Shown piece by piece: positions 1,789 to 5,106 of a stretch of DNA of 64,000 nt. Source of the DNA: a virus; the IMG/VR virus record IMGVR_UViG_3300044825_001572, positions 1-64,000 of that record. One strand, written 5' to 3'. How positions within the stretch are numbered: position 1 is the stretch's first letter; every line of letters begins with the position of its first letter. The position numbers and the translations under genes were made by a program. The notes under the pieces are model-generated. The model saw only the letters and a program-made list of their open reading frames with translations. It searched no databases and had not been told where the DNA came from.

Positions 1789-1829
1789 GTGTATGAAGTC
1801 ATTATACAATAAAAGGCACCCGATTTCAA
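1789..1829 (-). promoter_or_regulatory. Promoter cassette copy 2: TTGAAA-N17-TATAAT
   Basis: The best sigma70-type promoter of the window: TTGAAA (1824-1829), exactly 17 bases, TATAAT (1801-1806), then four bases and TCATACAC (1789-1796). The predicted start is near 1794, upstream of the ATG at 1777. The -35 box sits inside the terminator hairpin of the preceding endonuclease gene, so one short stretch ends one transcript and starts the next. Confidence 0.7.
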
Positions 1830-1834
1830 GTGCC
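1811..1834 (-). terminator. Terminator after the GIY-YIG endonuclease gene
   Basis: On the minus strand GGCAC and GTGCC form a stem with a ten-base loop followed by TTTT. The stop codon of the endonuclease (1826-1828) lies in the loop. The stem is short, so termination may be partial. It is fused to promoter copy 2. Confidence 0.55.
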
Positions 1835-2602
1835 CTTGTGTCTGTTTGAGAATTGTCTTTTTTTCTTCATCATTCCAAGAACCCATCCTTCACCAGGACA
1901 TTTTACAGACATTTTGTTATTTCCACATCCATCATTCCACCATTTTTTACCATAATTATGGTTTTTTTCACCTTTAATTGTTTCACTATGTTTTCTTTTA
2001 ACTTCTTCATTCCTTCCAGGAAACCAACCCTCACCAGGACATTCTACGACAAATTTTGTATTACCATAACCATCATTCCACCATTTTCTTCCTTTCTGAC
2101 TTTCACTCATTTTACTTTTTCTTTCTATAGAGTGTGGTTTGCCTTTATGAGATTTACTCATTTTTTTTCTCGATTCTTCCGACATTATTTTACCCGTATG
2201 AGATTTACTCATTCTTTTTCTTACTTCTTCAGAATGAGATTTGCCGTACATCGGATTTTTTTCACTAGAATATTTAAGTTTTTTTAATTCACTTTGTTTT
2301 CTTCTGGTTTCTTCACTTATAACAGCACCAGAAGGACCTTCCCCACCATCGGTTTTATTATGAAGAATACCATTTCCCAAATCTTTTCTACCGAACACGG
2401 CAATCATATATTTTTCGTGCCTAAATGCATCTTCTTCTGTTAGGTTCTCTTTTAAGAAGATTATTCTTGATTTGTCTTTCGGTGGTTTTATTTCGTTTTT
2501 ATTTCTTGTATATGCTCTTTTTCCACTACCTTTACCGATATAGTAAGGAGTTTTGTCTTTCCGCAAATATGCGTAAGTATAAAACCTATTAGGATTTACC
2601 AT
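1826..2602 (-). CDS. GIY-YIG homing endonuclease with NUMOD3 repeats, 258 aa
   Basis: A free-standing homing endonuclease, which cuts intron- or gene-less alleles so that its own locus is copied in. The GIY-YIG nuclease module is at about residues 7-90 (TYAYL...YYIGKGSGKRAY). It is followed by NUMOD3-type DNA-binding repeats at about 100-170 (MYGKSHSEEVRKRMSKSHTG and two further copies). A duplicated C-terminal module follows, with motifs KWWNDG and PGEGW, at about 172-245. It interrupts a run of tiny genes and has its own control region upstream (2613-2691) and its own terminator. Comparable to T4 seg genes in lifestyle. No frameshift is seen, so it is probably active. Confidence 0.9.
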   Translation of the reverse strand: MVNPNRFYTYAYLRKDKTPYYIGKGSGKRAYTRNKNEIKPPKDKSRIIFLKENLTEEDAFRHEKYMIAVFGRKDLGNGILHNKTDGGEGPSGAVISEETRRKQSELKKLKYSSEKNPMYGKSHSEEVRKRMSKSHTGKIMSEESRKKMSKSHKGKPHSIERKSKMSESQKGRKWWNDGYGNTKFVVECPGEGWFPGRNEEVKRKHSETIKGEKNHNYGKKWWNDGCGNNKMSVKCPGEGWVLGMMKKKRQFSNRHKGT

Positions 2603-2627
2603 TTCTATTCTATTAAGACGGCATTAT

Positions 2628-2635
2628 TATTTATA
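2628..2635 (-). promoter_or_regulatory. Late promoter TATAAATA before GIY-YIG gene
   Basis: Exact match to the T4 late consensus TATAAATA on the minus strand. The expected start about 12 bases downstream (near 2616) lies inside the lower arm of the inverted repeat, upstream of the ATG at 2602. Confidence 0.7.
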
Positions 2636-2638
2636 ATA

Positions 2639-2662
2639 GAAAAGGTGCCCCGAAGGACACCT
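2639..2662 (-). terminator. UUCG-loop terminator
   Basis: Minus strand AGGTGTCC-TTCG-GGGCACCT forms an eight-pair stem (one G-T wobble) with a C(UUCG)G tetraloop, followed by TTTTC. It ends the small-gene transcript coming from the right, between the two arms of the inverted repeat. Confidence 0.75.
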
Positions 2663-2701
2663 AATCTTATCTGTAGAGATTGCCGTCTTAACAGATGTTA
2701 T

Positions 2702-2709
2702 TATTTATA
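2702..2709 (-). promoter_or_regulatory. Second late-promoter match TATAAATA
   Basis: A second exact TATAAATA on the minus strand, overlapping the stop codon (TAA, 2705-2707) of the 41-aa gene. Its surroundings resemble those of the 2628 promoter, suggesting local duplication. Its transcript would pass the whole inverted repeat. Confidence 0.5.
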
Positions 2710-4434: not shown

Positions 4435-4698
4435 TTATTCTCCACCTATATGACTTGTTGGTTTTCCATCAGGATTGCGCGATACACTTTCTACCCATTC
4501 TGAACCATCATAGACAGCAGGGAAGTAAATACGATTTGTAGTCCAAAGAGTAAATGGTGCTCCTTCACTACCACCAAAACCACAATCAAACTCTTTGAGT
4601 AGTTCTTCCTCTGTGAGAGTAGAACTTACAACATCGTCAAAGGTTTCTTTGCGTTTATTCATTTCGTGTTGAATGAGTTCTTTCCAGTTAGTGTTCAT
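4435..4698 (-). CDS. Hypothetical protein, 87 aa
   Basis: Starts MNTNWKELIQHEMNKRKETF; the second half is a glycine- and aromatic-rich region (GCGFGG-like FDCGFGGSEGAPFTLWTTNR) that looks like a small beta domain. Start overlaps the upstream stop by four bases. No family recognised. Confidence 0.65.
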   Translation of the reverse strand: MNTNWKELIQHEMNKRKETFDDVVSSTLTEEELLKEFDCGFGGSEGAPFTLWTTNRIYFPAVYDGSEWVESVSRNPDGKPTSHIGGE

Positions 4699-4937
4699 TT
4701 TTCACTCCTCACAACTTGACCATCATCAAACAACTCATAAAACCTCACTTCTCTTTTTGGTTTTTGTTTCCTGCGGTCTCTTTCCCGCTCAAGAATAGCA
4801 ATAGCAGCATAAGATGCCTGTTCCATATCAGGTTGAGGAAACCCTACTTCTTCCCAAAAAAATCCCCAATACCTTTTGTAGATGTAATAAAGAAGAGTTC
4901 CAGTTCTGGTGTATTTTGGAGCAATTTTGAGTTTCAT
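4695..4937 (-). CDS. Hypothetical basic protein, 80 aa
   Basis: Starts MKLKIAPKYTRTGTLLYYIY. Strongly basic centre (ILERERDRRKQKPKREVRFY). Small basic phage proteins of this kind may bind nucleic acid, but no motif supports that here. Lies 16 bases after the membrane-protein gene and overlaps the next gene by four bases. Confidence 0.65.
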   Translation of the reverse strand: MKLKIAPKYTRTGTLLYYIYKRYWGFFWEEVGFPQPDMEQASYAAIAILERERDRRKQKPKREVRFYELFDDGQVVRSEK

Positions 4938-4953
4938 AATCAGAAATCAATTG

Positions 4954-5106
4954 TTAGTCAGTAGTTTTAAGAGTTGTAGAACAAAGAAAAGCAACTAAAA
5001 GAAACCATCCCCATCCTTCAGTACCTTTGGATGCGAGATTAACTGCTCCAATCACACAAGCAATAGAGACAGCATTAGAGACCAGTAGCAGGAGTGTAGG
5101 ATCCAT
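4954..5106 (-). CDS. Small membrane protein, 50 aa
   Basis: Reads MDPTLLLLVSNAVSIACVIG and continues AVNLASKGTEGWGWFLLVAF. Two hydrophobic segments flank a short polar turn, so it is probably a two-span inner-membrane protein. It starts one base after the stop of gene 5108-5395. The MDP...SS/N start resembles the membrane protein at 9615-9854. Function unknown. Confidence 0.6.
   Translation of the reverse strand: MDPTLLLLVSNAVSIACVIGAVNLASKGTEGWGWFLLVAFLCSTTLKTTD

Follow-up and report, generated by a model that had tools for sequence, protein, structure and literature searches.

Organization of the homing locus

The window, i.e. the whole 64,000-nucleotide stretch of viral DNA that was analysed, is part of the 76.7-kb IMG/VR virus record IMGVR_UViG_3300044825_001572, and its nearest GenBank phage match is the cyanomyovirus S-SRM01. 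All genes of the homing locus discussed here are encoded on the minus strand. The locus comprises a free-standing homing endonuclease gene and, upstream of it, two late promoters, two complementary arms, a hairpin (P1), and an intrinsic terminator (Table 1).

Table 1. Features of the homing locus in the window
Feature	Position	Strand	Remarks
Left late promoter TATAAATA (NATAAATA class)	2709-2702	minus	exact match
TAA stop of the upstream ORF, overlapped by the left promoter	2707-2705	minus	
P1, 5' strand (AUCUGU)	2696-2691	minus	P1 covariation
P1, 3' strand (ACAGAU)	2674-2669	minus	fold, covariation
Distal arm (arm 1), antisense to the mRNA leader	2695-2681	minus	in and beside the P1 loop
UUCG intrinsic terminator, between the arms	2662-2643	minus	
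Right late promoter TATAAATA	2635-2628	minus	exact match; predicted mRNA +1 at 2622
Proximal arm (arm 2), nearly the entire homing mRNA leader	2623-2609	minus	
Predicted small RNA, P1 followed by the terminator hairpin	2696-2636	minus	5' end at predicted +1 (2696); putative transcript
GIY-YIG/NUMOD3 free-standing homing endonuclease gene (258 aa)	2602-1826	minus	ATG at 2602

An earlier, sequence-only reading had described a perfect 11-bp inverted repeat (2613-2623/2681-2691) enclosing a UUCG terminator and an exact late promoter, all of which are present as described; as minus-strand RNA, the arms form 15 pairs (2609-2623 with 2681-2695), one of which is G-U. The overall arrangement was confirmed to be real and widely conserved. 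Promoters were called by consensus, and start sites were predicted by placing the T4 late box at -13 to -6 (PMC2988020), which gives starts at 2696 and 2622 for the left and right promoters, respectively. The transcription start that had been placed near 2616, within the arm, is therefore shifted by approximately 6 nt, to approximately 2622 at the promoter-side edge of the arm. The terminator, regarded earlier as an extra element nested in the loop, does lie between the arms but is a constant part of this type of cassette (type I); that description mentioned neither the left promoter nor P1.

The product of the homing gene matches NUMOD3 (E 5e-19) and a PHROG homing endonuclease, and combines GIY-YIG with NUMOD-type DNA-binding repeats, the residues of the YTY..YIG motif being invariant in 41 relatives. 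In a structural model of moderate quality (mean pLDDT 71), the top match was the GIY-YIG domain of UvrC, with weak similarity (E about 0.7). Only distant relatives of this gene family were found in bacterial genomes. GenBank labels related GIY-YIG/NUMOD3 homing genes in S-SRM01, B23, and Sf-CH5 (L003, L004, and L005, respectively) as 'translation initiation factor 2', apparently on account of their lysine-rich repeats. A terminator at 1812-1837 (minus strand) overlaps the end of the homing gene and is common to L006 but not general; as a component of the cassette, a terminator downstream of the homing gene was found in only 3 of 43 cases.

Conservation of the arm helix

In the window alone, the inverted repeat is not significant: 9 repeats of 11 bp at such spacing were seen, compared with a mean of 5.0 and a maximum of 11 in 20 first-order random sequences. 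The arrangement is considered real because it is conserved with compensatory change, not because of the repeat alone. A protein search yielded 80 loci, and 58 distinct relatives were considered that had been selected by protein similarity only; most loci derive from metagenome assemblies. At a helix score cut-off of 22, 50 of these 58 relatives have a late promoter with an arm immediately after it that can pair with sequence further upstream, so that the arrangement does recur before the homing genes of related phages, where the sequence-only reading had proposed to look for it. The 57 TATAAATA sites below the cut-off have a mean score of 12.8 and a maximum of 21, the latter belonging to L045, which is itself a cassette; L030 is a variant.

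Sixty-three cassettes contain 37 distinct 10-bp arm pairs, in which 365 of 370 positions are paired, a figure inflated in absolute terms by the selection of these cassettes for the helix. This bias is addressed by the protein-selected set and by swapping arms between cassettes, which leaves 214 positions paired on average and 248 at most. In an alignment of 25 sequences, pairing is 100%, 8 of the 10 arm pairs have changed on both sides, and covariation is 0.727, compared with 0.215 or less when the arms are slid; as the sequences are related, cell counts do not represent independent events. The covariation across relatives rules out a chance repeat. The sequence of the arms thus varies while their complementarity is kept, which indicates that selection acts on the arm helix itself.

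The left promoter and empty alleles

Of the 63 cassettes, 62 have TAAATA ahead of arm 1, with the pattern N(A/C)TAAATA: position -13 may be any base, and position -12 is always A (52) or C (11). This left box conforms to the NATAAATA late promoter consensus reported for cyanophages (PMC2984593), and the C variant is known from phage Aeh1 (PMC2988020). The right promoter, TATAAATA, lies between the arms in 61 of the 63.

The cassette occupies the left end of the insert. At the peptidase site, the left box is missing from all of approximately 80 empty alleles (four contigs scored as empty are really occupied copies under other locus numbers), whereas the occupied alleles have it, and the upstream genes of empty and occupied alleles are up to 98% identical. 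Other comparisons between occupied and empty sites agree, including L059 with L027, L013 with L064, and L038 with L076. Three sites are exceptions, with empty alleles that carry ATAAATA near the stop codon (L046, L042, and L009 at 8214). Because most empty sites lack the box, the left promoter was brought in by the inserted element at most comparable sites; a pre-existing promoter serving as the insertion target is ruled out there by the box-less empty alleles, the three exceptions apart. In the peptidase-site insert of L079, the region past the homing gene (about 4637-5000) has another late promoter plus one additional ORF (MNSQELRSLQEAYLEVV...), after which the host sequence resumes, and a similar ORF is present at L057:945.

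P1 and the predicted RNAs

P1 shows covariation of its own, with a score of 13.4 against 10.3 for swapped partners (maximum, 11.8 of 500). Its 5' strand begins 3-6 nt past the left box in all 37, i.e. around the predicted +1, and the right promoter is reached 49-78 nt (median, 57) past the left +1. Nearly all type I cassettes have a hairpin with a T-rich tail at the terminator position, formed by several unrelated sequences. The predicted small RNA of the window copy folds at -25.3 kcal/mol (z -5.6), and none of 200 shuffled sequences was as stable.

The predicted duplex between the small RNA and its own mRNA has a mean energy of -21.3 kcal/mol (-16.3 for the weakest of 50), compared with about -9.5 kcal/mol for foreign pairs. 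It starts at the mRNA +1 in all 63 cassettes and ends a few nucleotides before the AUG. Two further expectations of the sequence-only reading held in folding: read-through RNA (2696-2590) is predicted to form the long stem by the start codon (z -7.2), and late RNA begins past the distal arm, the mRNA from 2622 being predicted to be unstructured (z 0.39).

Thirteen loci yielded no Rfam match at the gathering score, c4 included, and a known RNA family or intron was rejected for them on this ground. Selection for different arms within a genome is unsupported, with identical arms in 2 of 150 comparisons within genomes versus 34 of 2300 between genomes.

A second scaffold

In S-SRM01, Sf-CH5, and others, a second scaffold (type II) was identified, in which the order is GGGCAGCA, arm 1, and UGCGUAAGUCC, followed by the late promoter (L270-L349, L005, L019:2936, L030:602, L232, and L269). 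The hairpin GGGCAGCA...UGCGUAAGUCC is conserved, and its loop is complementary to the late mRNA that follows. A search of viral contigs by the scaffold pattern alone returned 113 stretches, of which 55 distinct ones were analysed: 50 are followed by a late promoter, 51 pass the helix cut-off, and 49 do both. L287 passes the cut-off without a late promoter, probably by chance. Folding of type II sequences alone was not exceptional for one of the two copies tested.

No conserved left promoter was found in type II cassettes, and a sigma-70 promoter before them is plausible in single cases (L030) but follows no consensus. As type II preserves the pairing of the arms but no left promoter, a dedicated small RNA is not general, and this is the main argument for a cis component.

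Distribution and exchange between nuclease families

A covariance model search detected seven cassettes in S-SRM01, up to seven per IMG/VR record, and one in the window's own record. The model (R1) found no match in the S-PM2 deletion mutant, S-SZBM1, DSL-LC03, S-CREM1, or Sf-CH5. S-B68 has a cassette recognized by eye (L267), and the cassette occurs in the cultured phages S-SRM01, S-B68, and B23.

All inspected matches at E < 1e-4 precede nuclease-like or NUMOD-type ORFs. Represented among the downstream ORFs are at least four GIY-YIG subfamilies, HNH-type genes (MNYLK..HH; phrog_655), an Endonuclease_7/HNH-like gene, and, by a weak match (E 0.05), a PD-(D/E)XK-like one. Among unusual ORFs after cassettes are a possible PD-(D/E)XK nuclease (L257), a zinc-finger/HNH gene (L248), short ORFs without a recognized nuclease domain (L223 and L232), and uncharacterized ORFs (L299 and L327). 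Nine of the 63 arm types are found in front of two or more nuclease families, and the cassettes of L220 (HNH) and L241 (GIY-YIG) are nearly identical. To judge from such sequence comparisons, the cassette moves between nuclease families.

Proposed mechanism and alternative explanations

We consider it probable, with moderate confidence, that the element is a control cassette, exchangeable among the homing endonuclease genes of cyanophages, that works through antisense RNA and produces a real small RNA. The proposed order is the left late promoter, P1 holding arm 1, the terminator, the right late promoter, the arm 2 leader, and the homing gene. RNA from the left promoter would stop at the terminator, giving a two-hairpin RNA of about 57 nt, whose arm 1 would pair with the mRNA from +1 to a few nucleotides before the AUG and block ribosome binding. 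RNA that reads through the terminator, whether from upstream or from the left promoter, would be locked in cis by the same pairing. Early translation would then be off, and late translation would be damped according to the ratio of small RNA to mRNA. Blocking may occur in cis on read-through RNA, as in I-TevI, in trans, as in c4 of P1 and P7, or in both modes. Three steps of this model are inferred: the left box works as a promoter, the small RNA builds up and acts in trans, and the pairing keeps translation down. To our knowledge, trans-acting RNA machinery has not been characterized in cyanophages, and this counts against the small-RNA model, as do the type II cassettes, the three exceptional sites, and the finding that arms differ no more within genomes than between them. 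By analogy with I-TevI, mobE, and segB, the pairing would block initiation (PMC2988022, PMC3014915); a free small RNA acting in trans, for which c4 provides the analogy (PMC12197685), is the less certain part.

The sequence-only reading had proposed a T4-style switch. The helix, the late promoter between the arms, and their conservation agree with it, but the second late promoter and P1 are left unexplained. A version restricted to cis, as in T4 I-TevI and segB and Aeh1 mobE, is possible but doubtful. In read-through RNA the ribosome site would be hidden by the arms, the terminator would insulate the gene, and the right promoter would make unlocked mRNA; a free small RNA would play no part, and the left box would be a leftover or a weak promoter. 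That the stem folds in read-through RNA and not in late mRNA, that a conserved left promoter is missing from type II cassettes, and that the mechanism has been demonstrated in T4-like phages all speak for such a lock. However, it makes P1 unnecessary, and an element-borne left promoter at a fixed spacing to P1 would purposelessly yield locked or terminated late RNA. A pure early-off/late-on lock is incomplete because a late promoter is kept upstream of the blocking arm, and the layout fits a short, terminated antisense RNA co-timed with the mRNA better than a read-through lock.

Two explanations do not involve RNA pairing. Operators overlie the promoter of I-TevI and probably those of I-TevII and I-TevIII (PMC2988022), and the inverted repeat could similarly be a DNA operator or a homing-site mimic bound by the endonuclease for autorepression. 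This is very unlikely, given that unrelated arms precede closely similar proteins, the same arms precede unrelated nucleases, and compensatory changes with G-U pairs on the transcribed strand point to RNA pairing. The position of the cassette at the edge of the insert would suit terminal repeats or recombination ends of a mobile element, but both arms lie on one side of the gene, and their sequence is free to vary while pairing is kept; we regard this explanation, together with that of a plain terminator-promoter insulator with chance repeats, as extremely improbable.

The antisense-RNA reading might be extended, although we think it unlikely, to a small RNA that serves as an identity tag in trans, such that an endonuclease with the same arms on a co-infecting phage is silenced by the resident cassette. 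If so, the arms would define incompatibility groups of homing genes, like c4 in P1/P7 immunity, from which a homing gene could free itself by exchanging its cassette or altering its arms.

It has long been asked how free-standing homing genes keep from harming their phage, and a portable RNA module moved among nuclease families would mean that selfish genes bring a brake with them. The arms offer dozens of natural variants for direct tests, and the cassette is a ready covariance-model family, apparently missing from Rfam.

Comparison with known systems

Blocking of a ribosome site by antisense RNA or a hairpin is of a known kind; neither the openly accessible papers searched nor, for the tested loci, Rfam yielded a portable cassette with two late promoters that serves several nuclease families. 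T4 I-TevI, I-TevII, I-TevIII, and segB and Aeh1 mobE use hairpin/late-promoter logic (PMC2988022, PMC3014915). In common with these genes, the cassette has a helix over the ribosome site on the long RNA (here in silico) and a late promoter inside the helix, with late RNA free of the 5' strand. Unlike in them, the helix is a module common to several nuclease families and encloses a terminator, and the distal arm has its own promoter and hairpin. A late promoter (NATAAATA or NCTAAATA) precedes arm 1 in all but one of the 63 cassettes, a departure from the T4-type scheme, in which, on our reading of the published version, no late promoter lies upstream of the 5' strand of the helix. As of a 2010 review, no small trans-acting RNA of T4 had been functionally characterized (PMC3014915).

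Like c4, the predicted cassette RNA is encoded upstream on the same strand and is complementary to a ribosome-site region, with the complementary part in a hairpin loop; the cassette differs in having two separate late promoters and homing nucleases and in lacking an Rfam match to C4. The c4 RNA is an immunity regulator encoded upstream of its target on the same strand and co-transcribed with it. In P1 and P7, it is complementary to the ribosome-site region of the target through stretches located in loops (PMC12197685).

An antisense RNA linked to a homing endonuclease gene is CfrI of cyanophage S-PM2 (PMC2984593), which differs from the cassette in its length of about 225 nt and in its location on the opposite strand, over F-CphI and psbA. 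Arm 1 is not such an opposite-strand cis-antisense element, lying upstream on the gene's own strand. IS10 RNA-OUT and the ISPpu9 small RNAs belong to other elements with another layout and resemble the proposed cassette RNA in that a small RNA restrains the enzyme of a selfish element.
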